From a virus: 38,670 nt of DNA. Location of the stretch: positions 1 through 38,670 of IMG/VR virus record IMGVR_UViG_3300030098_004356. One strand, 5' to 3'. The notes under the pieces were generated by a model, which saw only the letters and a list, made by a program, of their open reading frames with translations, was not told the origin of the DNA and made no database searches. How positions within the stretch are numbered: position 1 is the stretch's first letter; each line of letters starts with the position of its first letter. Of the stretch, positions 494 to 37,219 are shown piece by piece. A program made the translations under genes and the position numbers.

Positions 494-590
494 AAAATAT
501 CCCTATACAAAAACCGGTATAAAACAAGCAGCCGCTGCTCGCAAAAAGCAGAGTGCTAAGAAACCTGTGAAAAGAAAAAGGGGCAGGTAG
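474..590 (+). CDS. Small basic conserved phage protein, 38 aa
   Basis: This 38-residue peptide opens with MPKVGGKKYPYTKTG and continues as a Lys/Arg/Ala-rich tail. The PKVGGKxYPYT start is a pattern I recognise from many short proteins of marine phages, usually near structural genes, whose role is unknown. The ATG follows GGAG within the overlapping upstream gene. The stop TAG shares one base with the GTG start of the next gene (TAGTG), which suggests translational coupling. The high positive charge would suit nucleic acid binding, but that is inference. Confidence 0.65.
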   Translation: MPKVGGKKYPYTKTGIKQAAAARKKQSAKKPVKRKRGR

Positions 591-946
591 TGACAACTAA
601 ACCAGAGAAGTCAACAAGTGAAATAAAAGATAGTGTTATTCAGGAAGATCCTGTCAGTCCTAAAAAGGATACTAAACCTAAGAAGAAACCAGCAAAGAAA
701 CGCACTAAGACTACGACTGCGAAAAGCAAACGACGTAAACCTGCTACTAAAACATTAAGTAAACCAGCTCCTCCGCCACCTCCTCTAACTATTGAGGAAT
801 TAAAAGAGCAAGGCAGAGAAGCTAAGCAGGAAATTGTAAATGCGGTTGTTGAACCTGCGCTTGAAGCTGCCGGTTCTTTGTCGCAAACAATCAGAGATAC
901 GATTAGCGGGGCCTTCTCAGGGCTTCTCAGTCGTAAACGTAGGTAG
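590..946 (+). CDS. Lysine-rich disordered protein, 118 aa
   Basis: The protein starts at GTG, overlapping the previous stop by one base. Residues 1 to about 65 are dominated by Lys, Thr, Pro and Ala with a PAPPPPP run, so this half is likely disordered and very basic. The second half, from about residue 68, reads as amphipathic helices rich in Glu and Ala and ends in RKRR. The composition resembles histone-H1-like or DNA-condensing tails, but no fold can be named. An opposite-strand frame of similar length here lacks a plausible start site and is a shadow. Confidence 0.55.
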   Translation: MTTKPEKSTSEIKDSVIQEDPVSPKKDTKPKKKPAKKRTKTTTAKSKRRKPATKTLSKPAPPPPPLTIEELKEQGREAKQEIVNAVVEPALEAAGSLSQTIRDTISGAFSGLLSRKRR

Positions 947-948
947 TA

Positions 949-1116
949 ATGCACCCACTAGGCTGGCTATTCAAATACTTCTTTGCGTCAATTGTTGGCG
1001 CAGCTACAGTTGTGCAAGCAATTAAGATAGCTAAGTTTGAATTGGGGAACACTGTTGAGGGACTAATCTTTCGTGACGGTGTTCACCCTGATAAACACAA
1101 GAGGGATGATGAGTAG
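949..1116 (+). CDS. Small membrane protein, 55 aa
   Basis: The ATG lies two bases after the preceding stop. The first half (about residues 4-28) is hydrophobic and aromatic, with WLFKYFFASIVGAATVV as a likely single membrane segment. The rest is hydrophilic and ends in a charged HKRDDE tail. The gene sits among very small genes just upstream of tatC. A holin-like or other inner-membrane role is possible. It does not show the amphipathic helix expected of TatA. Function unknown. Confidence 0.5.
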   Translation: MHPLGWLFKYFFASIVGAATVVQAIKIAKFELGNTVEGLIFRDGVHPDKHKRDDE

Positions 1117-1210
1117 CTTTGACAGTTCAGTCATTGGTTTTCGCCGAAATATTTTCGGTAGAATAAACAAGTTAGGTGTTCTCAATTTCGGGAACACAAA
1201 GAAAAAATAA
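1106..1210 (+). CDS. Very small basic protein, 34 aa
   Basis: This short frame starts at tandem ATG codons behind GAGGG and overlaps the end of the preceding gene by 11 bases. It encodes a serine-rich start, then FRRNIFGRINKLG, and ends in KKK. It has no membrane segment. It would fill the otherwise empty gap between two small membrane-peptide genes. Support is limited to the binding site, the overlap and the compact context, so it may not be translated. Confidence 0.35.
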   Translation: MMSSFDSSVIGFRRNIFGRINKLGVLNFGNTKKK

Positions 1211-1219
1211 GAGGGCAAC

Positions 1220-1342
1220 ATGCCAAACGACCCAATCATCATAGGTATAGCAGTTATTGCAATCGCTGTTCTTGGTTATACAGCCATCAACGGAATGATG
1301 AGCAGTAGTAAAAGCAAAGACAAGACCGACAAGAGCGCATAG
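1220..1342 (+). CDS. Single-span membrane peptide upstream of TatC, 40 aa
   Basis: The ATG follows GAGGGCAAC. Residues about 6-20 (IIIGIAVIAIAVLGY) form one hydrophobic span, followed by a short Ser/Lys/Asp-rich tail. The stop lies three bases before the tatC start, so the two genes are almost certainly co-translated. Size and order (short N-terminus, one helix, charged tail) resemble a stripped-down TatA/TatE or a small holin. The Phe-Gly hinge and amphipathic helix of real TatA are not visible, so a Tat role is only suggested by adjacency. Confidence 0.55.
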   Translation: MPNDPIIIGIAVIAIAVLGYTAINGMMSSSKSKDKTDKSA

Positions 1343-1345
1343 TCT

Positions 1346-2257
1346 ATGAGCCTCTCCGCTTACGAGCGGGGGTTCAGGTTCGGTCAGCGGTTTAGAAACA
1401 CCGTATTTCTGTGCATCTTAGCGTGGAGCATTGGAGCAGGTGCAACATTCTGGTGGCACCCAGAGGTGTTCGCTTTCCTGCTTGCTCCCGCAGAAGAGAT
1501 GCTGTCTCCCTTTGAGGGAAGACCTGTCTTTACAGCACCCCAAGACATGTTCGGTTCTACCTTGAGCCTGTCTATGAAGGGTGGTCAGTTCGTAGCGTTC
1601 CCTGTGCTTGTTGTGGGTGCGCTAACAATGCTCAAGCCGTTTGTTCCACGGCGATTCTGGTTGTTTATAACAACGTACTCAGCAATATCTATTGCAATGT
1701 TCCTATTAGGTGCATCATTTGTATTCTGGGTAATGATGCCAGTGTCACTCCACTTCCTCTTGAACTTTGGTAGTGGCATAGCTGTCCCTGTAATCCTGCT
1801 TACAGAGTACATAGCCCTGTTGTTAAGCCTGTTGTTTTGGATAGGGATAGTGTTTGAGTTACCTATAGTGATGCAGCTACTGGCAAAGTTTAGGGTTGTC
1901 TCTTACTCAAAGGCCAGAAAGCTACGTAAGTGGATTGTTCCGACAGCTTTTATCTTTGCTGCTCTTATCACACCGTCACTAGATGGAACACTTACATTCT
2001 TAGTTGCCCTCCCTATGCTGATTCTCTACGAGATAGGCTTGATAGCAGGGTGGCTTACTGATCGTGAAGGTAATTACTTTGCTGACCTACCAATGGTTCA
2101 AAACATCTATCAATTAATACGTAAGATATACAAGGTAGTTAAATCAAGAGTAATGAGGGTTGTCTACAAGATGCGTTCAACGATAAGGTTAGCAGTACAG
2201 GTAGTTCAGCGTGGCGGTAGGAAAATCGTACACTATTGGAAGCGGTTGGGCTACTAA
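1346..2257 (+). CDS. tatC: TatC-like twin-arginine translocase subunit, divergent
   Basis: This 303-residue protein has six predicted membrane spans in the TatC pattern. Family landmarks are FELP at residues 170-173 at the end of span 4, ITPSLD at 208-213 and LYEIG at 227-231 in span 6. TatC normally forms the inner-membrane receptor for folded proteins carrying twin-arginine signals. Here the N-terminal HLxELRxR motif is replaced by FRFGQRFR, with Gly13 where Glu is expected. The short loop after Pro101 (PRRFW) also lacks the second conserved Glu. A strongly basic 67-residue tail (237-303) follows the last span. The upstream gene ends three bases before it and a hairpin terminator follows. 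TatC homology is secure; normal signal-peptide recognition is doubtful. Confidence 0.85.
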   Translation: MSLSAYERGFRFGQRFRNTVFLCILAWSIGAGATFWWHPEVFAFLLAPAEEMLSPFEGRPVFTAPQDMFGSTLSLSMKGGQFVAFPVLVVGALTMLKPFVPRRFWLFITTYSAISIAMFLLGASFVFWVMMPVSLHFLLNFGSGIAVPVILLTEYIALLLSLLFWIGIVFELPIVMQLLAKFRVVSYSKARKLRKWIVPTAFIFAALITPSLDGTLTFLVALPMLILYEIGLIAGWLTDREGNYFADLPMVQNIYQLIRKIYKVVKSRVMRVVYKMRSTIRLAVQVVQRGGRKIVHYWKRLGY

Positions 2258-8220: not shown

Positions 8221-8842
8221 TGAATTGGACTCCTCCTACTCCTACAGCGAATACAAGTGTCGTAAGTGCCGCGCACTCACGTTGGAACTTCTTTGTAAGA
8301 CGCACAAATTTTGTACGCTTTTCTGCGTAGTCAGACGGGGCGTTTGGTGGCGTAGCGTTGGAGTGCTCATGGTTTATGAGCGGGTCACTACTTATCTCAC
8401 ACTGGCACAAAGGGATAAGGGAATAGTTCTCACTCCCGAACAACTTAGCCAACTGTCTATGATACTCGTGCCCCAACATTCCAAGTGCTTGAAGGTACTC
8501 ATCTGAGCCGTTCATCATCGTCGCAAACGCAGGGCTACTCGCGAAGCCTTTAGCTGTGTTTATTAGCCCTTTAGCTGCGCCTATCTTGCCACGTATTACC
8601 TCCTTGAGACTTTCAACAGCCTCGTCCGGTATGCCTGACTGTCTTGCAGCTTCTGCTGCTGCTTCAATCTGCTCTTCGAGTGGCATTGAGGGGTCTATTG
8701 CAAACCCTGCCACCTTCGACACCTCAAAGCCACCCGCTTCCTCACTTGGGGGGTCAGGTAGCTTTTGCAAGTCCTCTTCCAAGAAGGATAGGTCAAACGG
8801 CTCCTTCTTGTTATCGTCTTGATTTTTTTCTGGAGTTTCCAT
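8204..8842 (-). CDS. Hypothetical early protein, 212 aa
   Basis: An acidic, proline-rich N-terminal region (about 1-45) is followed by a helical domain with IDPSMPLEEQIEAAAEAARQSGIPDEAVESLKEVIR arranged as several helices. The C-terminal part holds ECAALTTLVFAVGVGG, a moderately hydrophobic stretch. Two cysteines occur in LCQCE. It lies directly downstream of the VWA gene, so it may act with the MoxR/VWA pair, for instance as an adaptor or substrate. That link is positional only. Confidence 0.55.
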   Translation of the reverse strand: METPEKNQDDNKKEPFDLSFLEEDLQKLPDPPSEEAGGFEVSKVAGFAIDPSMPLEEQIEAAAEAARQSGIPDEAVESLKEVIRGKIGAAKGLINTAKGFASSPAFATMMNGSDEYLQALGMLGHEYHRQLAKLFGSENYSLIPLCQCEISSDPLINHEHSNATPPNAPSDYAEKRTKFVRLTKKFQRECAALTTLVFAVGVGGVQFNESED

Positions 8843-8865
8843 ACATACTCTTTCTATGCTATCGC

Positions 8866-10488
8866 TTACTGACGTACCTCAGCAAGGAATCTCATTGTGT
8901 TTTGTAGGTTGTAAAGTTCATCTTCGCTACTAATGTTCACGCTACTTTCGGACGGGAATATCGTGTCCATGTTAGAGAGGTCGTGCCCTATCAAGACAGA
9001 AGCAAACCTTAGTCCGTCACGTATGAACCCGTAATTCACGGCTTTTGTGCACTCACTATAGTTTGGATATCCATCTGTAATAAGCACGGCTGCAGACGCT
9101 CCTATATCAGACAGGATAACCTGCTTCAAGAACAAAGCGCCTGTGCAGGTTGGCGTACCTCCACCTAAAGTTCTACTCACCTCATCGTGTGTCGGCTGTT
9201 GCCCTGTAGGATTTGTGGCTATCGTAGCAGAGCACGAACCAGTCCCTCTCCCAGACGAGTATGAGTACACACTAGACTCAGGGAAAGCCTTCATAATTGC
9301 ACCGGCTGCTTGCCATGCCAACCATGCAGGTGAGCGCAAGTTGGTGTTGTACATGTAGCCTCTGCGACGGCGACCATAATTTGCGCAACGGGAACAGGGG
9401 CAGCCCATAGACCCGCTCATGTCCACCATGATCGCCACCTTGCCACGCACTTTAGGGTTGTCCTCAAAGACAGCCGTGTCCCCAAGCATACCTAAGCGCC
9501 ATATGTCACGACTAGGCATACCTTTGAACTTATTTTTCGTCTTGCCCCAGAGACCACGTGTCTCATCAAGCACCAGTGTTGTAGCTGAGCCAAGTTCAAT
9601 CGGCTCTGATCTCACCTGCCTTACATCAGAGAAGAGATGTTCCTGTCCTTTGATGTTTACAGCTTTCTTAGGTCCGACTACATCGTGCCCTATGCCGTCA
9701 CCATCTGACCGATCTGCTTCTGCCTCTTGGTTTTTGACAGCCTTGATCTCGTCACGCTTTTGCTTGTCTTTGGTTTGGACTTTCTCAAGCAAGCCTCCTG
9801 GGTCTACGCTCCCGTTACCCGGCGGTGGTCTACGAAAGTTCTCAGGTCGTGACATGTTCAGGTACTCTGCGATCTCAGCAGACAAACCGATCAGGCTCTC
9901 CTGATCGTCTGCGCCTATGGCTGTTGTGATTCGCTTCCCGAACTTCTTACGCACCTTATCCATAATTGGGTGTGCGTTAGGTGAAGGCACGTCTATCCCT
10001 ATACGTAGCATCTCTGTCCGCAAGTTGCTTCCAGTTATTGCTTGCTCGGCAGTTATAGGCGCCGGGTCTGGACGCTTGCTTACTGCCGAGTAGAACTCTT
10101 GCATAATCTTGCCGTTGTGATAATGATCGGCTGCTTTATGTGCAGTCCTCACGTTCTCCAACGTATCCCATATGCTTGCTACGTCTGAACCGACCGCTTC
10201 CTTGAGTGTTTCCGTAGCCCCTAGAGGGCTGAACTTAGCCCGCCCTGCACCAAGCAGCTTAGCTTCAAAGCTAGACTGCCGTGGCAGGTACACCTCAGCC
10301 TGACGATGAGCATAGTCGTTCCTATTTACGGCGTCCCCGTACTGATCGTCAAGCCCACGCCCCGCTGCTATGTCACTTGCGTCACGCTCTGCGTCACGCT
10401 TGATCTTCGCCCTACCACCGCCAGATATCATACCGAAGAACGAACCGTAGTCCGAAAATCGGGTGTCTCTGGATTTTTTCTTAGGCAT
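8866..10488 (-). CDS. VWA-domain protein partnered with MoxR ATPase
   Basis: This 540-residue protein has a long hydrophilic helical N-terminal region (about 1-345) and a C-terminal von Willebrand A domain. The metal site is DMSGS at 356-360, with a later GGGTPT and VLITDGYP supplying the other MIDAS positions. Directly after the MIDAS motif is CPCSRC (363-368) and an Arg-rich loop, an unusual insertion that could bind zinc. Layout and partner gene resemble the CobT or Mg-chelatase D type, in which a VWA subunit recruits the target for an AAA+ ring. The MoxR gene ends eight bases upstream. Cobalt chelation itself is not implied. Confidence 0.82.
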   Translation of the reverse strand: MPKKKSRDTRFSDYGSFFGMISGGGRAKIKRDAERDASDIAAGRGLDDQYGDAVNRNDYAHRQAEVYLPRQSSFEAKLLGAGRAKFSPLGATETLKEAVGSDVASIWDTLENVRTAHKAADHYHNGKIMQEFYSAVSKRPDPAPITAEQAITGSNLRTEMLRIGIDVPSPNAHPIMDKVRKKFGKRITTAIGADDQESLIGLSAEIAEYLNMSRPENFRRPPPGNGSVDPGGLLEKVQTKDKQKRDEIKAVKNQEAEADRSDGDGIGHDVVGPKKAVNIKGQEHLFSDVRQVRSEPIELGSATTLVLDETRGLWGKTKNKFKGMPSRDIWRLGMLGDTAVFEDNPKVRGKVAIMVDMSGSMGCPCSRCANYGRRRRGYMYNTNLRSPAWLAWQAAGAIMKAFPESSVYSYSSGRGTGSCSATIATNPTGQQPTHDEVSRTLGGGTPTCTGALFLKQVILSDIGASAAVLITDGYPNYSECTKAVNYGFIRDGLRFASVLIGHDLSNMDTIFPSESSVNISSEDELYNLQNTMRFLAEVRQ

Positions 10489-10496
10489 ATACCCTC

Positions 10497-11513
10497 CTAC
10501 TTACTGCCTTGTATACCACTGATCGCTTGTAAGATTTCCTCAGGCGTCATCTTGGCGATAGTAGCTGCTACGTTCTTAGCTTCTTGCGGTTCTGCTACCT
10601 GCTTAGGCTTAGGTGCAGGAGCATTTACTGCGTTGTTGGGGAACATAGCAGAGTTTCCCATCACCACTTTATTGCTAGCCGGGTCAAAGTGAGCACGTGC
10701 ACCTGTGAGTAAGGCTGACACCTCACCATACTTAGGTGTGATCGTGTACTCAATCGCTTGAAGTGGCGTAAATCCACGCATGGTCATTTCCGCAGCAGCA
10801 GTCAGGTCACCAGTGTTTATGTTGGTGCTTGTTGCTTCACGTGCATCATCTACCCATGACGTAAACCGCTTCACCCTGTCAGCCTGCTCGGTTGTGCCGT
10901 CCCCAAGTATGTACGTTAGTGCCTTCTCTTCGTCTGCGAGTGGCTGATCTACCGTACGCACCCATTTGAACCTGCGCAGGAAAGCCTTGTCTAAGTTCTG
11001 AGACAGGTAGCCTTTGCCGGGTGGGTTAGCCGTAGCAATAACCGAGAACTTATCCGACACAGGAACCTGCGCCTCACCGTTCTCAGGCAGAGACCAGTAC
11101 GCACCGACCGAATCCATAACACCGTACATACGTGACATGAACTCCTGCGGTCCGCGTGTAGCCTCTTCAAGCATGAACGTCTTGCCTTCACGAACAGCGT
11201 TCGTAAACGCACCGTCCTGCCACTCAATCGTAACGCCACCGCCTTCAACAGGTGACGGTCTCCACTGTCCCACCAAGTCCCGTATGTCCATACCTGGGTG
11301 AGCGTTCACAGCAACGAACGGGTTGCCGAGAATCTTCATCACAGTCTGGACGATGAAGGTCTTACCCCAACCTGTGCCACCGAGCAGGAGCCTGTGCAGT
11401 CCGTCTGTACGGCACAAGTCCCACGCAATTTCTTTGCCCAGATCGTTGAAAAACCGACCCTGCTCTTCGAGTTCACCCAGCTTAGCCGTAAACTCCTGAT
11501 GTGTAATAGACAC
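10497..11513 (-). CDS. MoxR/CobS-type AAA+ ATPase
   Basis: This 338-residue AAA+ ATPase has Walker A GGTGWGKT at 45-52, Walker B FMLEEA at 113-118 (Glu where Asp is usual), sensor 1 in VIATANPPGKGY, and LDKAFLRRF holding the arginine finger. VNAHPGMDIRDLVGQW is characteristic of the MoxR/CobS branch. Such ATPases work as hexamers with a VWA partner to remodel or metal-load a protein, and the partner gene follows directly. The C-terminal third is Ala/Pro-rich and probably flexible. The start is GTG five bases after AAAGGA. The substrate is unknown; maturation of a phage complex or attack on a host one are both possible. Confidence 0.85.
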   Translation of the reverse strand: MSITHQEFTAKLGELEEQGRFFNDLGKEIAWDLCRTDGLHRLLLGGTGWGKTFIVQTVMKILGNPFVAVNAHPGMDIRDLVGQWRPSPVEGGGVTIEWQDGAFTNAVREGKTFMLEEATRGPQEFMSRMYGVMDSVGAYWSLPENGEAQVPVSDKFSVIATANPPGKGYLSQNLDKAFLRRFKWVRTVDQPLADEEKALTYILGDGTTEQADRVKRFTSWVDDAREATSTNINTGDLTAAAEMTMRGFTPLQAIEYTITPKYGEVSALLTGARAHFDPASNKVVMGNSAMFPNNAVNAPAPKPKQVAEPQEAKNVAATIAKMTPEEILQAISGIQGSK

Positions 11514-22325: not shown

Positions 22326-25300
22326 ATGACTACAGATTTACGCGGCTTCAGGCCAGCAGGAAATCCATACAGAGGCCCTCAAAGCGCACCGCCCCTAAAA
22401 CCATATGGTAGAGCCGGGATGGGGTCAGGGGCTGGCGGACCTGGTCTTAACTTAGAAGATCTTGCACGACGTAGGCAAATTCAGGCTCAAGCAAGAAGGC
22501 AAGCCCAAGGCCCTCCTCAGCAGCCAAAAGGTCAAGAGTTACAGTCTTATCAAGAATCAGCCTTTGTTGGACCTCTATGGGAAAACTACATGGAGGAAAT
22601 GGCGGATGTCTTTGGTAGAGCTTTAGGCTCTGAGGTTGACATTAAGATAGAAAACCCTGAGAAGTTTGGCGGGGTAGTTAAAGCTGTTACAGATCTTAAA
22701 AAAGGCTGGCAAGAGCAGGGCTTAGGTGAAGTTGAAGCAGGTAATGCTGCGTTCCACACAATCTTTGAGGCCATGCTGCCCGGATTAAATTATAACGCTA
22801 ATGCTGTTGCTCCCGGATTAAACTTTAAACTTGCAGAAGATCCTTTAAAAGCAGCCTTCCCTCCCCCTCCTCCTCCTCCAGAACCTACACAGTTTGAGCG
22901 TTTAGCTGCAGTAATTGGAAACCCAATGTTACGAGCATCCGGGCTTATGGGTGATAGTGGTCCTGGGTTGCACGGATTATCAACCGCGGATGCGGCAAGG
23001 GGATTTGTAAACCCTCTTACCCCAATAATTCCTGAATCATTTGTAGGGGACGCTGGTGGGGCAAACCGTGTTGCTCGCCAAGCCCTCCGAGATCTTTCGT
23101 CTCCAGCGGCTTTAGCTATTACTGCAGGAGCGCCTGCAGCAGGAGGTGCAATAGCAAGGGGCTTAGCTCCTAAGGTTGCAGGTCAGGCTTGGAATAGTAG
23201 GTACTTTGCACCAAAGCTACTTAAAGCAGTAGCCGAGCCTATACCTGGCAGTTATGGAAGAAATGTTCTAGCTGAAGGTATGGGTGAAGCAGGGGCATCT
23301 CTTGCCATACGTGCATTAGAAGACCAGGGAAAACTACCTGAATCTATACCTGGACAAATCGCAATTGGACTTGGTGGAGGACTTACTGGCTTTACTACCG
23401 GTGCCTTAACTCCGCCAGCGGTAGGAGCGGCACGCAGAGGTCTAGGCAATTTAAGCCCGACATCATTAGTCGATCCTGACTTTAGAGGAATAGCAGATCT
23501 GCCTCCTGAAGGACCAGCTAGAGATAGTTGGATGCTAGAGGAATTGCTAGGAAAGTACCGCCTAGAAGCTAACCCTTATCTTACTAGAAGTGGCGGCGGG
23601 CGAGTAGTGTCTCAAGGGCCTCTGACCGAGGAGGGGCAAGCTTTAAAAGACGCATCAGAAAAGATGCTAGAAAACCCCGAACTATTAGAAGAGCAAGTGC
23701 GGGTAATGAGAACCGTTGAGCCGATGTATGGAGGTACAGGAGCACAAAGAAGAACGGGAACTGCTGACCTAATGCGAGATGAATACGGCGAGATTATACC
23801 TATGGATCTCGGTACGGCAACGGTCAGGGATACCGAGGGCAACCCTATCGCTTCCCCTATGCCTTTTTCTGAAGAAACTACAGCGAAGTATGTAACAGAC
23901 ACAGGCATGGTTCTGAGCCAGGACGCTGAAGGAAATGTCGTTGGAGATATCCAAGGAGGGGCGTTCCGAGCCGGGTTATATGACCCTGTAAAATCTCCAG
24001 ACCACGGGGTAGGTAGTTTCGGGACCACTTACTCAAGGGACACAGTTATAACACCAGATAATTTTGGAAGATGGATAGAAGATAGGTCCCCTGAGGAAAT
24101 AGCCTCGCCGTATACAAGAGGATTTGTATCGAGAACTGGTCCTGATGGTATGCCTCTACCAGAGGGGGAGAAGAGAACAGCGCATTTTGAAGTAAAGCTA
24201 GCTAAGGGTAATTATGAGGAAGACCAAGGCTATTATGTTAATGAAGTTGTACTAGATGAATCTGGGCAACCCAGAAAGCTTAGCCAAGAAGAAGCCAATG
24301 AGATTTGGGGTGCGAGAGAGTATCAACTTAAGCCTGACCCTAAAGACCCTAATGTGATGTTAACCCAAAAAGATACGCAGGGAAGGCCTGTTCTCGCCTT
24401 AGACCCAGATGGCCAGCCAATACGGAGAGCGCCTGAACCAAACCAATTTATAAAGGATGCTGAAGGAAATATCACAGGACTGAAACGAATACTAATTAGT
24501 CTTCGCAAAACGTATGGTGGTACCCAAAAACATGAGGGAGTATTTGAGGGGGGTCCATATAAAGGCGCCTCAAAAATAGGTGAGTACAACTACCATTTTG
24601 ACGTATACGGCTATGACCCTTCATTCGCCAGTTACACAGTAGGTGAAAGCCGGCGTCCTATAGCTGGACAGCAAAGACGTGTAGACCTTGGAGGCTTCGA
24701 CCAGAAAAACGCTCTAGGCAGAAAAGGCCTAGCTCAAGCATTAGAAAAAATTATGGACCTGCAAAAAGCTAAGGGGTGGGAGGAGCTTGTTGGATTTGTA
24801 GGTTCAAGGATTCATGGCGCTCGAAATACTGTTTACACTTCAGCTAATGAAATACATAAGGGCGCAAGAAACAGGACCCCAGGCACGCGTGCTGGGGAAT
24901 TTGAGATCGACCCTGAAACTGGACGAAAAGTAGGATATGACGAAGGCAGAAAGGCAAGAAAGGCAATTAATGCTGAATCATTTGCAAGGGGTCCTGTCAG
25001 CACAATCGTCAGAACCTGGGATGATGTAGCGATAGGACTTGCCAGGTCGTTCCCGACACTAACAGATAGGGAGGTTCTTGGTGCAGTAGCTTTTATGAGG
25101 GCAAGGGCTAAAACTGCGAGGGATAGCTGGGATGCAGACCCGGAAACCCGAGGTAAGTATAAATCTGATGTAGATTGGGCACGTGAAAGAATTGCAGGGT
25201 TTAACGCAGACGGCTTAATTTTAATGAAAGACGGGAGGGTTCTAAGCCCAGATCTTAAAACAGGCTTAGGGGCGGCTGTCCAATCAAAGACCAACGTAAT

Positions 25301-28300
25301 GCTAGGTGCTAGCCAACCAGGCTTTACCGTGGAGGTTATAGGCAACCCTGGAACCATAGAAAAAATTAGTCTGTTTGGTCGTAAAGTAGTGCGTGCTGTA
25401 GTGTCGTCTAATTTTGGGAGACTGGACCCCCAGCGGCAGATAAGTCAACAGATTATAGATACAGACCCTAAACTTCAGAAAGAACTAATTCAAGACAGAG
25501 TAAGAACTGAGTCAATAAAAGAGAAGGCGCTTGGTTGGGACCCGCTAGCACAGCAAGCGGGATTGTCGAAGCCTTTAGAACTATATCGACCTCCGTGGGA
25601 TCGAAGAGATTCAGGTAGAAATTGGCACCCTCTCTTAGAGCCAAAAGACAGCGTATGGCGTAAACGCTTTGATGAGGAATTGGGGGCTATGTGGCATGAG
25701 CTGGGCCATATCATCAGGAAGGACATCTACGACTTAGATCCTAACGCTTATTTTGTTCTTAAAAGCTTTTCGATGAGTAAGGAAGAATTTGATAAGTCAA
25801 CTTATAAGCACCCTCTCTTAGAGCCTAATGCGGAATCGGTGCAGCCACCCATAGAAGGTGCTGCTATTTTTTCACGGCAAGAAGGACTTTTCACAGAATG
25901 GCAAAAAACGCCCGATGAGTATCTAGGTTATGATAATTGGTCACAGGAAGCTGAAGAAAAATTTGCAGCAGGCTTTTTAAGTTACATACTTGACCATGAA
26001 GGCTGGAGGCTTAACACAAGAAATTTTGGACAGCTTGAGAAAAACAACCTTGCAAAAGTATTTGACTTTGTAGGTAGGTGGCTACGAGATATAGGGCGCC
26101 TTACTCAAGACGCGCTTGATGAAGGCTTTACGGCAGGCAGGGTTAGCCTAAATGAAACAGAGTACCGTGCTTACGATCAGCTAATTACTACAGTAAAAGA
26201 TAAGAGAACGCTACTTGGGCCTGAAAGTGGAATTGGGGGACAATCAGGACTCACTGTTTCAACCCCTGAAATGAGAGAGTATACAGGCCTGCCTCGCTTC
26301 CCTGAAGGGATGCCGCTAGACCAGAGGAGGATTATAGACGCACGTGCAAACCCTAGAGAGGGTGATGTTTCGCAGCCTTTGATGGACCGGAACATACAAG
26401 AAGGTACCGTTCCGTACCAAAGGCTGGCACCTGACGCTCCTTCTGGACCGACAAGGCCCCGCTATGATGAACTAGGTTTCGAGTTAGACCCTGATGAAGA
26501 TGCAGATCTATTAGTACTTCGGGACTTCCTAGATGAAGATGCAGACTTTGGTGGACATGAAGATGTTGCAGCAGATCTACATGATGAAAGAATCCGCAGG
26601 CAGCTTGAAGTTCAGCGACGGCCTGTAAACAGAACCCCGCCGCCACCGGCAGTCAGGCCTGCAATTTTTGACCTAGCCACAACTTCTGTCAATGAAAATA
26701 ATTACTGGAACCCCCTCCGGTCAGATGGGCAACGTAGCTCGGCGATAATGTTCGGAGGTTCCCGTAACGCTGGTAGCGAGCCACCAATTGAACTTGAACG
26801 AAGAGGTCGTAGCACGATTATAGCGCGCGAGATAATTGACCGTCGGGAGCCAAGAAGAAACCCTGATGAGCGTAGCTTTGCAGTTCTAGATCAGAATTGG
26901 TTTAATGAAGACATTGCGCCGTTGGCCTATATTCATTTCACCAGGCTCCCAAGAAATCAGGCAGCTTCCCGAGGCTTTATTGATAACGCTAAGGTATGGG
27001 AAGTTAGCGTAATGACTAGAGACCCGGGTGTACAAAGGGAGTTGCAATCGGTAGATGCCGCAAGGCGCTACGGGTTGGATGTTAGGAATGTAGCGAATGA
27101 CTCGCATATAGGTGACTGGATAGAAAAGATAGCGACTGACCGTAATTATAAAAGTGATACTAGCTGGGCAATAAATAACGTAGTTGGGTATACCCGCCCT
27201 AATGACCTTCCGTCAGGCCATCGCCTAAATGATATTCCATATGTGCTAGACGGTGACTTTAATATAATAGAAGCCTCTTCAGATCGCCCCCCTACTGGTG
27301 CGGATGAAGTTGCCCTACTGGCTTCACGGAGAGAGCAAAACCTTGACGATCTTCCTGAAGCAGATCTAAGTTTTATAGACCGTGCCCAAACTCCAGCAGA
27401 AGCAGCTAGTCCTTACGGTCAGATAAATGCTCAAAATGTAAGTCTTGAAGACAGGCACTCACAGGCAGTATTTGCTGCTAGGCAAAGGCGAGGGTATGCA
27501 GACCCTACTAACCCAAGTGACATTGAACTTGAAAAGAAATCATGGAAAGGACGCCAGATTCCGTTTGAAGATGCAGACAGGCTTCTTAAAGGTAGCGTCA
27601 GAGAAAAAGGCATAGCGGCTATTGGGGATCGACGCGCTGCAACTGAAGACACTATTGCACGTAGACGTGAAGAAAATCGCATGCTGGTAGGTAGAGGCGC
27701 TGGAGTTCGTAGCGACCCCAGATATGCAGGGCGAGAATCTGCTGCTCGTGCCAGTTCCGCCTTAACTCCAAAAGGCGCAAGAGATGTAACCGATATTAAG
27801 TTTGAGCCTTTAGATCCAGCAGAATTTACTGAAGCCGATCTTCACATAGTCTTTGAGTGGATAAATAGAAACCCAAAGATGCGGGAGTACACGAAGCACA
27901 ATACTACTAGGGCGGTATTCAAGCTAATTGACGGTGAAAACATAACCCGGTTTGATATTGTCAGGCTTAGAGAGGTTTTTGGAAAAGAGTTAACTGCCTC
28001 ACTGTTTGATACTCGGGGCTTCAAACGTAAAGCCTTTGACGAAATCATGGATATCCTTGGGATTCCGCGGCTATTGCTAGCAACCCTTGATTTCTCAGCT
28101 CCTCTTCGACAAGGTTTGCTTTCACTTGGAGGACACCCTGTTCGATGGACAAAAACAACAGGACCCGCATTTAGGGCTGCCTTAAGTGGTAAATACGAAG
28201 AAGGCTTACGTGCTCGCAGAGAAAACCATGCAAACTACGCGCTATTTACTGGGCAGACTGATCGTCTTCCTGAGCAAGGAGGAGGCTTTGGGTTACACCA

Positions 28301-30122
28301 AACTGATCCAGAGGCCGGAATGACAGACAGAGAAGAAGCTTTTATGTCTCGCTTCTTACAAAATATGCCTAATAGAGCAGGAAAAATCCCTGTTATTGGT
28401 GAAGTGGCTAAGCCTTTATTAAAAGGTATGGGTCAAGTCATGGGGTACCCTATCCGCTTTTCTGATCGAGGCTACAACTCTTTCTTAAATGAGCTTAGGT
28501 TTAACCTTATGAATGATGCTTGGGAAAACTGGAAAGCATCAGGTAAGGGCTTTAACCAAGACGGGTCACCTACTATGCAAACGATACAAGATGGGAAGCA
28601 TCTAGCTAGGTGGTTTAATATCTCAACAGGTCGAGGGGATCTAGGAGCGGCAGAGCCTCTTGCCCCCCTTCTTGCAAACATTTTGTTCTCTCCAAGGTTA
28701 GCTGCTGCAAGATTAGAGACTCCGTACGAGCTACTTAGGTGGGACCACTCAATGAGAGTGAAGCAACACGTAGTACGTGATGTGGCTGGAACGACAATGC
28801 TTGGCACAACTGTTCTTGGTCTTGCTGCTATGGCAGGGGTTGATGTAGACCTTGACCCAACATCTTCAGACTTTGGCCGTATGCAAATTGGAAACACTCG
28901 TATTGATATCTGGGGTGGATTCCAACCGCTTGTACGGACATTCTTTAGAATTGCGCAACAAAGAAGAAAGTCAACGGGAACAGGCAAAAGCACAGACTTA
29001 AGCAATGAAGATCTCTTTAATGAGTTCTGGAGCTTCTGGCGAAATAAGCTAGCACCTATACCTGGGTTTGCCGCAGACCTTCTAGGAGGAGGAACCTTTA
29101 CAGGTGATGAGATTAACTGGGAAGAAGAGAATGTAAAACGTGAACTGTGGAATAGGTTTGTTCCATTAATGCTTCAAGACTTAGAAGAGGCTTATTCAGA
29201 AGATGGAATAAGGGGCGCATGGCTTGCTGTCCCATCGTTCTTTGGCACCTCAGTTATTTCATACCAAGGTGTTGAAGAGTTAGCCCGGAGAGATTACAAG
29301 TATCCAGATGGGCGGACTCCCGCTAGAGGTGTTGACCGGCTTAGAGAACCTACGTACTCAATGTTCCAAGACCTTCCTCCTTTCTTGCAAGATCACGCAA
29401 TCTACATGAACAAGTTTGAGACCAATCGTAGTGAGACAGAGTTCTCTGAGTTAATCGAAAGTATTGACCATGAATACTGGACAGAGCTGGTAGGAATCGT
29501 TAGTAATACAGAAACTTCTGACTCGGTTAAAGTGTCTCAGTATTTTAATGCAGGAAACACGCGCTCTGATAAAAGAGCAGGAGCTTTTGAAGCTCAGTAT
29601 GGGGCATTTGAAGGAACTCGGGACGAGCCTAGGGACAATAACGAAAAAGCGCTTCAGCAGTATTACCAAATGATTGAGGATTCTACAGATGCAGACTTTT
29701 CTTTTAATAGTGAATACTTCAACGCAACCTTTGACTCACTTCTAGCGACATGGACTCCTGAGCAAGAGGAATGGGTTCGCGCTAACACCAACACTAAAGA
29801 TATTCCAAAGGCTATGTTTGATCTTTTACCTGACAAGCAAAAAGAGAACATCGAAAAGTCTAATGCTGCGAGAAAATCTTTAATTCAAAAATGGGCTAAG
29901 TCTCCAGATGAAATTGCAGAAGAGCAAGCCGGAGCTGCCCCAGACGTGGACATAACTCTATCTGAAATAGAGCGCAGGCAACTTGAGATAGATCAGCGCA
30001 GAGAAGCGCACAGGTCAGAGGCAGGGCTAGAGGCTGTGCCACCACGTAAAAAAGAATTAGATCCTTTAGGTCGTGAAGTTATCCCTCCAATATGGGAACG
30101 GGAGCCTGCTCTTACCCGGTAG
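22326..30122 (+). CDS. Giant polyvalent virion protein with metalloprotease motif, 2598 aa
   Basis: The N-terminal part holds a poly-proline run (about 179-185) and two Gly/Ala-rich hydrophobic stretches (about 255-290 and 340-370) that could insert in membranes. HELGH at 1124-1128, with acidic EE at 1210-1211 in a following helix, marks a zinc metallopeptidase of the kind found in phage polyvalent proteins. An acidic DEDAD region lies near 1385. Residues about 1905-2270 (LDFSAPLRQG, FSPRLAAARLETP, SSDFGRMQIGNTRIDIWGG) match a domain I know from large phage polyvalent proteins. It probably travels in the capsid and is ejected into the host. Most of its length has no assignable domain. Confidence 0.75.
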   Translation: MTTDLRGFRPAGNPYRGPQSAPPLKPYGRAGMGSGAGGPGLNLEDLARRRQIQAQARRQAQGPPQQPKGQELQSYQESAFVGPLWENYMEEMADVFGRALGSEVDIKIENPEKFGGVVKAVTDLKKGWQEQGLGEVEAGNAAFHTIFEAMLPGLNYNANAVAPGLNFKLAEDPLKAAFPPPPPPPEPTQFERLAAVIGNPMLRASGLMGDSGPGLHGLSTADAARGFVNPLTPIIPESFVGDAGGANRVARQALRDLSSPAALAITAGAPAAGGAIARGLAPKVAGQAWNSRYFAPKLLKAVAEPIPGSYGRNVLAEGMGEAGASLAIRALEDQGKLPESIPGQIAIGLGGGLTGFTTGALTPPAVGAARRGLGNLSPTSLVDPDFRGIADLPPEGPARDSWMLEELLGKYRLEANPYLTRSGGGRVVSQGPLTEEGQALKDASEKMLENPELLEEQVRVMRTVEPMYGGTGAQRRTGTADLMRDEYGEIIPMDLGTATVRDTEGNPIASPMPFSEETTAKYVTDTGMVLSQDAEGNVVGDIQGGAFRAGLYDPVKSPDHGVGSFGTTYSRDTVITPDNFGRWIEDRSPEEIASPYTRGFVSRTGPDGMPLPEGEKRTAHFEVKLAKGNYEEDQGYYVNEVVLDESGQPRKLSQEEANEIWGAREYQLKPDPKDPNVMLTQKDTQGRPVLALDPDGQPIRRAPEPNQFIKDAEGNITGLKRILISLRKTYGGTQKHEGVFEGGPYKGASKIGEYNYHFDVYGYDPSFASYTVGESRRPIAGQQRRVDLGGFDQKNALGRKGLAQALEKIMDLQKAKGWEELVGFVGSRIHGARNTVYTSANEIHKGARNRTPGTRAGEFEIDPETGRKVGYDEGRKARKAINAESFARGPVSTIVRTWDDVAIGLARSFPTLTDREVLGAVAFMRARAKTARDSWDADPETRGKYKSDVDWARERIAGFNADGLILMKDGRVLSPDLKTGLGAAVQSKTNVMLGASQPGFTVEVIGNPGTIEKISLFGRKVVRAVVSSNFGRLDPQRQISQQIIDTDPKLQKELIQDRVRTESIKEKALGWDPLAQQAGLSKPLELYRPPWDRRDSGRNWHPLLEPKDSVWRKRFDEELGAMWHELGHIIRKDIYDLDPNAYFVLKSFSMSKEEFDKSTYKHPLLEPNAESVQPPIEGAAIFSRQEGLFTEWQKTPDEYLGYDNWSQEAEEKFAAGFLSYILDHEGWRLNTRNFGQLEKNNLAKVFDFVGRWLRDIGRLTQDALDEGFTAGRVSLNETEYRAYDQLITTVKDKRTLLGPESGIGGQSGLTVSTPEMREYTGLPRFPEGMPLDQRRIIDARANPREGDVSQPLMDRNIQEGTVPYQRLAPDAPSGPTRPRYDELGFELDPDEDADLLVLRDFLDEDADFGGHEDVAADLHDERIRRQLEVQRRPVNRTPPPPAVRPAIFDLATTSVNENNYWNPLRSDGQRSSAIMFGGSRNAGSEPPIELERRGRSTIIAREIIDRREPRRNPDERSFAVLDQNWFNEDIAPLAYIHFTRLPRNQAASRGFIDNAKVWEVSVMTRDPGVQRELQSVDAARRYGLDVRNVANDSHIGDWIEKIATDRNYKSDTSWAINNVVGYTRPNDLPSGHRLNDIPYVLDGDFNIIEASSDRPPTGADEVALLASRREQNLDDLPEADLSFIDRAQTPAEAASPYGQINAQNVSLEDRHSQAVFAARQRRGYADPTNPSDIELEKKSWKGRQIPFEDADRLLKGSVREKGIAAIGDRRAATEDTIARRREENRMLVGRGAGVRSDPRYAGRESAARASSALTPKGARDVTDIKFEPLDPAEFTEADLHIVFEWINRNPKMREYTKHNTTRAVFKLIDGENITRFDIVRLREVFGKELTASLFDTRGFKRKAFDEIMDILGIPRLLLATLDFSAPLRQGLLSLGGHPVRWTKTTGPAFRAALSGKYEEGLRARRENHANYALFTGQTDRLPEQGGGFGLHQTDPEAGMTDREEAFMSRFLQNMPNRAGKIPVIGEVAKPLLKGMGQVMGYPIRFSDRGYNSFLNELRFNLMNDAWENWKASGKGFNQDGSPTMQTIQDGKHLARWFNISTGRGDLGAAEPLAPLLANILFSPRLAAARLETPYELLRWDHSMRVKQHVVRDVAGTTMLGTTVLGLAAMAGVDVDLDPTSSDFGRMQIGNTRIDIWGGFQPLVRTFFRIAQQRRKSTGTGKSTDLSNEDLFNEFWSFWRNKLAPIPGFAADLLGGGTFTGDEINWEEENVKRELWNRFVPLMLQDLEEAYSEDGIRGAWLAVPSFFGTSVISYQGVEELARRDYKYPDGRTPARGVDRLREPTYSMFQDLPPFLQDHAIYMNKFETNRSETEFSELIESIDHEYWTELVGIVSNTETSDSVKVSQYFNAGNTRSDKRAGAFEAQYGAFEGTRDEPRDNNEKALQQYYQMIEDSTDADFSFNSEYFNATFDSLLATWTPEQEEWVRANTNTKDIPKAMFDLLPDKQKENIEKSNAARKSLIQKWAKSPDEIAEEQAGAAPDVDITLSEIERRQLEIDQRREAHRSEAGLEAVPPRKKELDPLGREVIPPIWEREPALTR

Positions 30123-31065: not shown

Positions 31066-31938
31066 ATGGCTACACAACTTTCAACAACTAGCGTGTTGCA
31101 ACAGATGTCTCGAATCATGCTTGTAAAAGCACGTGAGACTGAAGAGCACAACATGCCGGTTGTAAACTTGATTGAGAGATTCAATCTACCTAAGGGTCAC
31201 TATCAACTTGATATTCCTAAGGTAGGACAGATGACTGCATCCGACCTGGATGAAGGCATCGACATGACCGATACGGAAGACATCAACCCGTCCATTGTTT
31301 CGGCAACGACGGCTGAGGTCGGCCTTAAGGTCATCGTAACTGACATTCTGCTTCGTCAGAATAACGAGTCAGTCTTTAGCATTATCGGTCGCCAGATGGG
31401 TACTGCTATGGCTCGCAAGAAGGACACTGACGCAATAGCGCTCTTCGTCGGACTTAACGGCGGAACTGAATTTGGTGCTGACGGTGCTGACTTTACGTTG
31501 GCTAACGCTTCGGCATGTATTGCGAAAGCTAAGGCAAACAAAATGGGGTCGCCTTTGTTTATTGTCCACCACCCTAATGCGATCTTTAAGTTCATTAGTG
31601 GCTTCTCTGGGCCTATCGCTTCTGGCGGTAACTTGCCCAAGCCGTTTGCGGCAGACGCTCTAGCGGACTTCTGGACTGGCATTAAGGTCAGCGGCGTACC
31701 GTTCTTTGAGGATGGAAACATTCAAAAGACATCGGGTGTTGACTCCGGATTCGGGGTCATCGCAAACAAGAACGCCATGGGCTACCTTGTTGCTAAGGGC
31801 AAGACTGAAGAGCGAGACCGAGACATCTCGCTTCGTGCATGGGAAGTCGTCGTTACTGAGGACTACAGCATGTTCGAGGTAGATGACACTCTTGGTGCCG
31901 CTTTGGAATACGAAATTGGTGACCACGCAACGTCATAA
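31066..31938 (+). CDS. Major capsid protein, HK97-like
   Basis: This 290-residue protein starts 21 bases after the scaffold stop behind AGGAAAA. It has a helical N-arm (TTSVLQQMSRIMLVKARETEEH), then strands DIPKVGQMTASDLDEG and AEVGLKVIVTDILLRQN. The long spine helix with SIIGRQMGTAMARKKDTDAIALF follows, then PLFIVHHPNAIFKF and the axial-domain end with SMFEVDD. This order matches short HK97-fold capsid proteins of environmental phages. It is encoded between scaffold and decoration protein, as expected. Confidence 0.85.
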   Translation: MATQLSTTSVLQQMSRIMLVKARETEEHNMPVVNLIERFNLPKGHYQLDIPKVGQMTASDLDEGIDMTDTEDINPSIVSATTAEVGLKVIVTDILLRQNNESVFSIIGRQMGTAMARKKDTDAIALFVGLNGGTEFGADGADFTLANASACIAKAKANKMGSPLFIVHHPNAIFKFISGFSGPIASGGNLPKPFAADALADFWTGIKVSGVPFFEDGNIQKTSGVDSGFGVIANKNAMGYLVAKGKTEERDRDISLRAWEVVVTEDYSMFEVDDTLGAALEYEIGDHATS

Positions 31939-35288: not shown

Positions 35289-37219
35289 TGGCTCTTCCAT
35301 CAACATCTGTTTTAGCTGACGCCTCGGTTGTAGACGAAGACGAGATAGCTCTTGGGGGTTTTAGATTTAAGGTTGCTAGTGCGCCAAAGAGAATACTTAC
35401 GTCTATACAAGCCCCACGTTTTACTATTGGAGATACACAGCGTGGCGCAGATCAACGGTCGTCTATCCTGACATGGAACGACTGGCGTGGCGGTATCGGA
35501 GTGCACCGTGGCACAGACTCAACCACGGCTGACCGTAGCTGGTGGTCTACTATGCAGACTCGCCATAAAGAACACCTTGTCTTGCCACGTAAAGCTGTAA
35601 AGACAGCAAATGTTGATAACACAGCAGGCCTTGTAAACATAATTACAGACTTAAATAACGAGGTTTACTGTGTAAAAAAAGACAAGGTTTTTAAGTACAA
35701 CAACTCTACTGATTCTTGGGGGTCAGCTTTAGACACACTCCCTGGTGATGCTGTTAGTGCGATAACAGACCGGGTTAACGGTACGGTTTACATGATTATC
35801 TTCCACACAGGAGGGTATACGTACACAACAGACGGTGCATCTTTTACAGACAGGACAACTAACGGGATCTACGGAGTAATCTGGCGCAATCAATTATGGA
35901 TGATCGACGATGACGGACTACTTAGGTCTAACTACGACATAACTGATGAAAACGCATGGGATGAAGACGCTCAACTACCTGTACCAAGTGGCTCCGTAAC
36001 AGGGCTTTTTATATCTAGAGATGCGTTCGGAGAATTTGTTATCTATGCGGCAACAAAAAGAGGCGTGTTCTCTCACGATGCAGACAGTAAGTTGTGGCAT
36101 CCAACAGAACCACGTTTTCCAAGACACACAAAAGGGGCATTGGGATCTAATGACTGGGCTGAAGCAATATATATACCAGTTGGTCTCTCGGTTTATAAGC
36201 GTGTTATCGGCTCTGGTGGAGCCACCTCTACCGTCATGGGGCCGGACAGAGACCACGGAGTGCCCTCCGACTATCGCGGATCAATTGCAACGTCCGCTGC
36301 GGCCCACAATGAATTGCTCGTCGGAACAGAAGTCTCAGCAGCCGATGAAATAGTTTTAAGCGGTGGTGCGATATCTAGCGGTCAGGGAAGCATGGCTTTC
36401 TTTACGCAAGATGACATAACAACTGTTGGCTACGCTGTAATCATGGGCTGGAACGATATCTCTTGGGAAGTGAAGTGGGTAGGAGGAGACTTTGGAACAA
36501 ATGTTACCTCCATGTTTGTAACTGACGCCTACACAGCAAGCAACATAGATATCTATCGCTTATGGTGGGGCTATGGTGGGCTTGTTTACTACATAGACAT
36601 TGAAGCAGACATAGTAAACCCAGACCAGGTTGCAAATCAGGTATACGCAACAGAGGGAACACATATCACCCCCTTCTTTGACGGAGGAGATGTAGTCCAT
36701 GAAAAACTAGCCCTTGATGTCACCTTTATAACGAATAATCTTTCATCAGGGACTCGGGAAATTGCTGTTTACTACGCAACAGACTTCTCAAATACATGGA
36801 CGTTATGGACAACCTTGACCACTAATGGAAAACAGACTGTAGCTTTTAAAGATAGTAGTAATAACCCTGTTGGTTTGTCGTTTTCTGAGATAGCTTTCAA
36901 GTTAGTATTTTCTGGTCAGGTAGACGCAACCACCTCCCCCGATCTACCAATGATGGAACTTAGGTGGCGTGAAAAACTGAACCCTAAATATGGTTGGCAG
37001 ATAACTATTGACCATACAGAAAACTACGGAGGGTTAACACCAGATGAGCAAAGAGAGGCTATTCAAGCATGTGTAGCAAATCAAACATTGCTCCAGTTCA
37101 CATATAAAAATGGTGATGCAGACCAAACTTATTGGGTAGATGCAACAAATCTAACCGGAGTTGAATCAACAGGGTTGGACAATGCTGGTGTAACCACCTT
37201 AAGTGTGGTGGAAACGTAA
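35288..37219 (+). CDS. Tail protein with propeller-like repeats
   Basis: This 643-residue protein has repeated blade-like segments from about 95 to 400 (LVNIITDLNNEVYCVKKDKVFKYN, AVSAITDRVNGTVYMIIF, GIYGVIWRNQLWMIDDDGLL, EFVIYAATKRGVFSHD), each a run of short strands. This suggests a beta-propeller as in nozzle or tail-tube-end proteins of short-tailed phages. The C-terminal 100 residues (MELRWREKLNPKYGWQI, ENYGGLTPDEQREAI, QTYWVDATNLTGVE) resemble conserved ends of tail proteins in environmental phages. It is coupled to neighbours on both sides by TAATG overlaps. Confidence 0.6.
   Translation: MALPSTSVLADASVVDEDEIALGGFRFKVASAPKRILTSIQAPRFTIGDTQRGADQRSSILTWNDWRGGIGVHRGTDSTTADRSWWSTMQTRHKEHLVLPRKAVKTANVDNTAGLVNIITDLNNEVYCVKKDKVFKYNNSTDSWGSALDTLPGDAVSAITDRVNGTVYMIIFHTGGYTYTTDGASFTDRTTNGIYGVIWRNQLWMIDDDGLLRSNYDITDENAWDEDAQLPVPSGSVTGLFISRDAFGEFVIYAATKRGVFSHDADSKLWHPTEPRFPRHTKGALGSNDWAEAIYIPVGLSVYKRVIGSGGATSTVMGPDRDHGVPSDYRGSIATSAAAHNELLVGTEVSAADEIVLSGGAISSGQGSMAFFTQDDITTVGYAVIMGWNDISWEVKWVGGDFGTNVTSMFVTDAYTASNIDIYRLWWGYGGLVYYIDIEADIVNPDQVANQVYATEGTHITPFFDGGDVVHEKLALDVTFITNNLSSGTREIAVYYATDFSNTWTLWTTLTTNGKQTVAFKDSSNNPVGLSFSEIAFKLVFSGQVDATTSPDLPMMELRWREKLNPKYGWQITIDHTENYGGLTPDEQREAIQACVANQTLLQFTYKNGDADQTYWVDATNLTGVESTGLDNAGVTTLSVVET

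Follow-up and report, generated by a model that had tools for sequence, protein, structure and literature searches.

TatC is the receptor that reads twin-arginine signals, and the question raised by this locus is what a virus does with a TatC in which the residues for that task have been replaced. The window, i.e. the whole stretch of DNA analysed, comprises 38,670 nucleotides (positions 1 to 38,670) of the virus record IMGVR_UViG_3300030098_004356, the full length of which is 42,263 bases; among its genes are one that weakly matches terminase and others for a Phage_capsid_4 capsid protein, a Prim-Pol and a MoxR-type ATPase, and no tRNA was found in it. The features of interest are collected in Table 1.

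Table 1. Coordinates of the tatC gene and its upstream neighbours (window numbering).
Feature	Position	Strand	Description	Basis
gene A	590..946	+	118 aa, Lys/Pro-rich disordered part, then amphipathic segment; conserved first gene of the cassette	
gene B	949..1210	+	zero-frame 55 aa (949-1116); +1-frame extension to 1210, 86 aa	
TTTCGT, putative +1 frameshift site	1069..1074	+	codon 41 of gene B	
gene C	1220..1342	+	40 aa, one hydrophobic span, directly upstream of tatC	
viral tatC	1346..2257	+	303 aa, ATG start	PF00902 profile, alignment, model, Foldseek

A sequence-only reading had assigned the last frame of Table 1 to TatC from three landmarks, FELP (residues 170-173), ITPSLD (208-213) and LYEIG (227-231); the frame and all three motifs were found as described, and the profile search and structure prediction that it had proposed gave the same assignment. 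Profile PF00902 matched at 121 bits (E 6e-35; cut-off 25.1 bits), residues 15-223 lying on positions 5-208 of the 208 in the profile, which makes the protein a member of the TatC family over the whole domain. Search of solved structures returned Aquifex TatC (4b4a, E 4e-24) as the top relative, together with other TatCs; the predicted model (built from 38 relatives; pLDDT 89.8) had the TatC fold, all seven Foldseek matches at E ≤ 0.001 being TatC. The gene thus encodes a full-length phage TatC, which carries in addition a basic C-terminal helix of 52 residues (249-300).

Close relatives of the protein (69-88% identity) were present in 16 viral contigs; deeply divergent viral TatCs were added by profile-guided and motif-guided scans and from the contig L191 of a metagenome-assembled genome (G291). 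Of the TatC matches in a public phage collection, those inspected resembled bacterial contigs and not phage relatives. One contig, IMGVR_UViG_3300005512_000026 (64.6 kb), contained two divergent copies of the viral TatC (L233 and L257). Between members of the viral group dN/dS was about 0.04-0.13, so the altered TatC has been kept by selection and a pseudogene was rejected; with 16 relatives at the above identity, neither the gene nor the loss at its signal site described below can be put down to chance or decay.

The signal-reading site was compared in an alignment of 15 viral TatCs and 69 cellular TatC frames (61 distinct; taken from one order of Chloroflexota and from the phylum at large), E. 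coli TatC serving as the ruler. The positions followed were H12, E15, F94 and E103, which are known to contact the signal peptide. Cellular TatCs retained H12 in 69/69, E15 in 68/69, F94 in 67/69 and E103 in 69/69; H12, E15 and F94 were each found in none of the 15 viral proteins and E103 in two (L191 and L263), so that neither the E15/H12 pair nor the F94/E103 pair of a twin-arginine receptor was present in the viral set. Position 15 was R in 11 viral proteins and K, Q, G or Y in the rest; position 103, outside the two exceptions, was F, Q, W, V, K or H. In the window protein E15 was changed to R15, F94 to a residue of L/M type and E103 to F104, and Glu was absent at both signal-contact positions from this protein and its 10 aligned close relatives. 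The core was kept: P48, P172 and D211 in 15/15 viral TatCs, with T or S at position 208 in 15/15. The losses fell on H12, E15, F94 and E103 while P48, P172, D211 and T208/S remained; the changes thus coincide with the signal-contact positions.

The central proposal of the sequence-only reading, a phage TatC with an intact core and both signal-contact glutamates lost, was therefore borne out, and the loss proved to be clade-wide and to include H12 and F94. Its placing of E15 at Gly13 was a wrong register; aligned through the 69 cellular TatCs, E15 falls on R15, a register favoured by that alignment and by R17, which is kept in 13/15. An artefact of alignment was rejected as the cause of the missing Glu, since the registers G13, Q14 and R15 are all without it. 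What stands at position 15 is the loss and not the glycine: Arg or Lys in most viral TatCs amounts to a reversal of charge. For the other glutamate, which aligns with F104, the loss was confirmed in the window protein and in 13/15 viral TatCs; it does not extend to the two basal ones that keep E103.

The E. coli TatC variant F94A/E103A (FEA) is blocked in substrate interaction and still binds TatA and TatB (PMC5201420). Judged from the E. coli mutants, it is very unlikely that the viral TatC reads twin-arginine signals. F94 and E103 are changed in the viral protein as in the FEA variant, and the fold and partner binding would be expected to survive in both; the viral protein differs in being natural and selected and in having lost H12 and E15 as well, the latter reversed to Arg. 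The residues T208 and Q215 form the polar cluster docking TatA/TatB. Position 215 in the viral TatCs was Q in 7, T in 6 and A in 2, and docking of a TatA/TatB type is plausible from these residues. An ordinary, functional twin-arginine TatC, carried as an auxiliary gene and compensated by residues at other positions, would be in keeping with the clear TatC homology and with the retention of R17 and of E170 (12/15); it is highly improbable, given the clade-wide loss of H12, E15 and F94, a virus in which no gene showed a twin-arginine-type N-terminus or substrate, and a neighbour (gene C) for which homology to TatA was not shown.

Likeness to cellular TatC (Aquifex 4b4a/4hts, E. coli 9e01/9dzz and the TatCs of the Chloroflexota order) thus covers the full-domain profile, the fold and the shared core residues, mostly with E170, and it extends to descent. 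In maximum-likelihood trees the viral TatCs formed one clade (100/100) with a long stem, nested inside the TatCs of that one order; the clade was still at 100/100 after the columns of both signal-contact loops had been removed. Trees and profile scores together show that tatC was captured once, by a tailed-virus lineage, from a peptidoglycan-less Chloroflexota order that would be SAR202-like. The loss of E15 took place on the viral stem; that of E103 came later or in parallel, since L191 and L263 keep it. The viral protein differs from its cellular counterparts in the dismantled site, in the basic C-terminal extension, in being encoded by a virus and in having genes A, B and C as partners in place of a demonstrable TatA/TatB.

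The host was approached by a DNA motif scan and by whole-genome profile searches; a scan of genome contigs with an alignment of phage TatCs alone gave no match. By TatC profile score one order of Chloroflexota stood apart (MAGs SP4360 and KW1-S15_215): 109 of its 117 genomes matched, many of them scoring 120-160 bits, and no match elsewhere in the phylum-wide sample exceeded 122 bits. The short contig L191, with the same cassette, had been binned with a genome of that order (G291); beside its divergent cassette lies a gene for a Mom-family DNA modification protein (L191 38-646; PF25680, 82 bits). A search of 247 genomes of the order against half of the virus record for CRISPR spacer or provirus links gave matches at chance level. 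No MraY/WecA family member scored over the cut-off in 59 host-order genomes, and a transpeptidase was detected in 1 of 40; control genomes were positive in both searches. SAR202 bacteria are described as lacking peptidoglycan (PMC10444878, PMC11994032), and we infer that the order is SAR202. The viruses, a marine family, probably infect these wall-less Chloroflexota. SAR202 bacteria and their relatives are abundant in the ocean; to our knowledge, their viruses are hardly known.

Genes A, B, C and tatC stood in fixed order in the TatC-bearing viruses with enough sequence. Gene A encoded 79-124 aa (charged or disordered, then amphipathic) and gene C 36-57 aa; the position and form of gene C, with an acidic residue ahead of the hydrophobic span and a basic tail, were conserved in all TatC-bearing viruses with sequence at this place, and in L268 it was the sole cassette gene found upstream of tatC. 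Gene C is similar to TatA in anatomy; homology was not shown by HMM against shuffles or by hhalign. In the continuous contigs L221, L222 and G506 the cassette followed fibre-like genes and closed the late region, so that small membrane proteins come last among the late genes, as in a lysis cassette. Profiles of A and B matched the window, G506 and G499, the contig of the last ending where tatC should start; they gave no match in four long capsid-homologous relatives without TatC (G500-G503), the records of which are possibly incomplete. In three of these four, the slot was filled by a small TM or TM/coiled-coil protein and a membrane protein of 379-425 aa (L399 1813-2952, minus strand; L400 8469-9746, minus strand) with a possible beta-helix part and no known family. 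Because the four genes are conserved as a unit, and the unit is replaced by other membrane proteins in the TatC-less relatives, A-B-C-TatC acts as a single module that can be swapped within a late slot for membrane proteins.

The slot itself bears on two further explanations. It lies close to fibre-like genes and in relatives holds other membrane proteins, among them one that may contain a beta-helix, which would suit a part in entry, superinfection exclusion, assembly (as a platform) or another membrane process during infection; nothing specific to TatC points to such a role, which we regard as distinctly unlikely. A dominant-negative TatC, joining TatA/TatB of the host and shutting down its export, would find its targets, since TatA (in 38/40 genomes) and a canonical TatC are encoded by the host order itself, and a largely kept docking cluster with substrate binding lost is the make-up to be expected of a decoy, as far as residues can indicate. 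A decoy needs neither a late position nor three co-inherited partner genes, however; simple blocking of host Tat leaves the co-encoded cassette less well accounted for, and this explanation appears quite improbable.

Gene B was split in 12 viruses, and in all 12, the distant L233 included, the hexamer TTTCGT was invariant and lay at codon 41. Slipping by +1 at this point (TTT C GTN) gives exactly 86 aa in 11/11 viruses and 87 aa in L233. In seven other viruses gene B was a single uninterrupted frame, colinear through the junction (GLIF followed by VTVFTLINTRGMM vs GIVFVNTWAAVTAKAGM). Through the +1 extension the product would gain another hydrophobic segment and a tail of basic residues. In the long genes of the window TTT was followed by C 9 times vs 37.8 expected (p 2e-9); such avoidance would be expected if TTT-C slips, and codon-context bias could also be its source. 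The hexamer is probably a programmed +1 frameshift site. The 34-aa frame at this place had been considered as a mimic of the twin-arginine signal ('RR peptide'); this was rejected, as relatives do not share the RR and the segment forms the C-terminal part of gene B.

When some 30 proteins of the window were scanned with PHROGs and Pfam, no endolysin was found, and among the tested window and cassette proteins no holin, spanin or endolysin family was matched significantly; an endolysin-like function could be hidden, as most of the phage genes have no annotation. The best explanation, which we hold tentatively and would not yet call probable, is a substrate-independent, Tat-derived membrane complex that permeabilises the membrane late in infection. 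The signal-peptide site was dismantled on the viral stem by loss of H12, F94 and E15 (the last mostly replaced by Arg), and the protein retained its fold, D211 and, of the cluster that docks TatA/TatB, T208; TatC, the small membrane proteins B and C and the amphipathic helper A would form the complex, to which gene B would contribute its probable frameshift-extended form. At the end of infection the cassette would permeabilise the cytoplasmic membrane in a holin-like step and, the host having no peptidoglycan, opening of the membrane alone could suffice for lysis. The complex with B and C, the late expression and the lytic role of the cassette are what we infer; lysis agrees best with the position in the late slot, with several small membrane proteins encoded together, with the lack of a recognised endolysin and with a host that has no wall. 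Weakening of the membrane by TatA-type proteins has been likened to the action of holins (PMC9527704). The viral proteins resemble phage holins by functional analogy only, as small membrane proteins that close the late genes; TatC itself differs, being a large six-span protein with no holin family match and no endolysin recognised beside it. Against lysis count gene C, which is not demonstrably TatA-like, and the replacement proteins of the slot, which are not recognisable holins; the two viral TatCs that keep E103 and the chance-level spacer and provirus matches also count against the preferred explanation. That viruses of wall-less Chloroflexota have made of Tat a stand-alone lysis device, with a charge-reversed signal site and small-protein partners, one of them frameshifted, is possible and rather doubtful.

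Selection on the scaffold also bears on export. TatC with B and C might move or insert a viral protein bearing a signal other than twin-arginine, with R15 recognising an acidic signal or one of another kind: strong selection keeps the scaffold, D211, E170 and the docking cluster, seemingly more than a plain pore would require, and position 15 is charge-reversed and not merely lost. Neither a candidate cargo nor a conserved alternative signal was seen, however, H12, F94 and E103 are lost too, and position 103 varies freely; such a retargeted exporter is unlikely, though worth keeping in mind. A TatC held under strong selection with its signal site dismantled suggests a separable second use of the scaffold, and the viral clade supplies variants in which to study what TatC does when it has no substrate; if the lysis explanation is true, the cassette would be one exit route for viruses from bacteria without peptidoglycan.

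In the open-licence literature no study of a viral or auxiliary-gene TatC was found besides an annotation: Virus_1, a circular marine virus of 39.7 kb, has Prim-Pol and TatC annotated automatically in a figure legend (PMC10564846). Compared by that annotation alone, it shares the Prim-Pol and TatC combination with the present virus.

Several neighbouring genes were recorded as well. A membrane protein with a VTT/DedA domain (L221 6863-7426, minus strand; PF09335, 42 bits) adjoins tatC convergently, and the protein convergent to tatC in G506 (35723-36376, plus strand) has a similar sequence start. Near the cassette of L233, a protein (8484-9023, minus strand) begins with a signal-like segment and shows a weak similarity to S24/S26 peptidases that falls below the cut-off. 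In the window, the region 8866-11513 (minus strand) encodes a MoxR/AAA_5 ATPase and a 540-aa protein without matches, a pair kept in relatives with and without TatC. A protein of 2598 aa without significant Pfam or PHROGs match (22326-30122; 1992-3500 aa in relatives) is encoded upstream of the capsid gene, and the capsid protein (31066-31938) has 434 relatives among viral contigs, which mark a large group of marine viruses that has scarcely been described.
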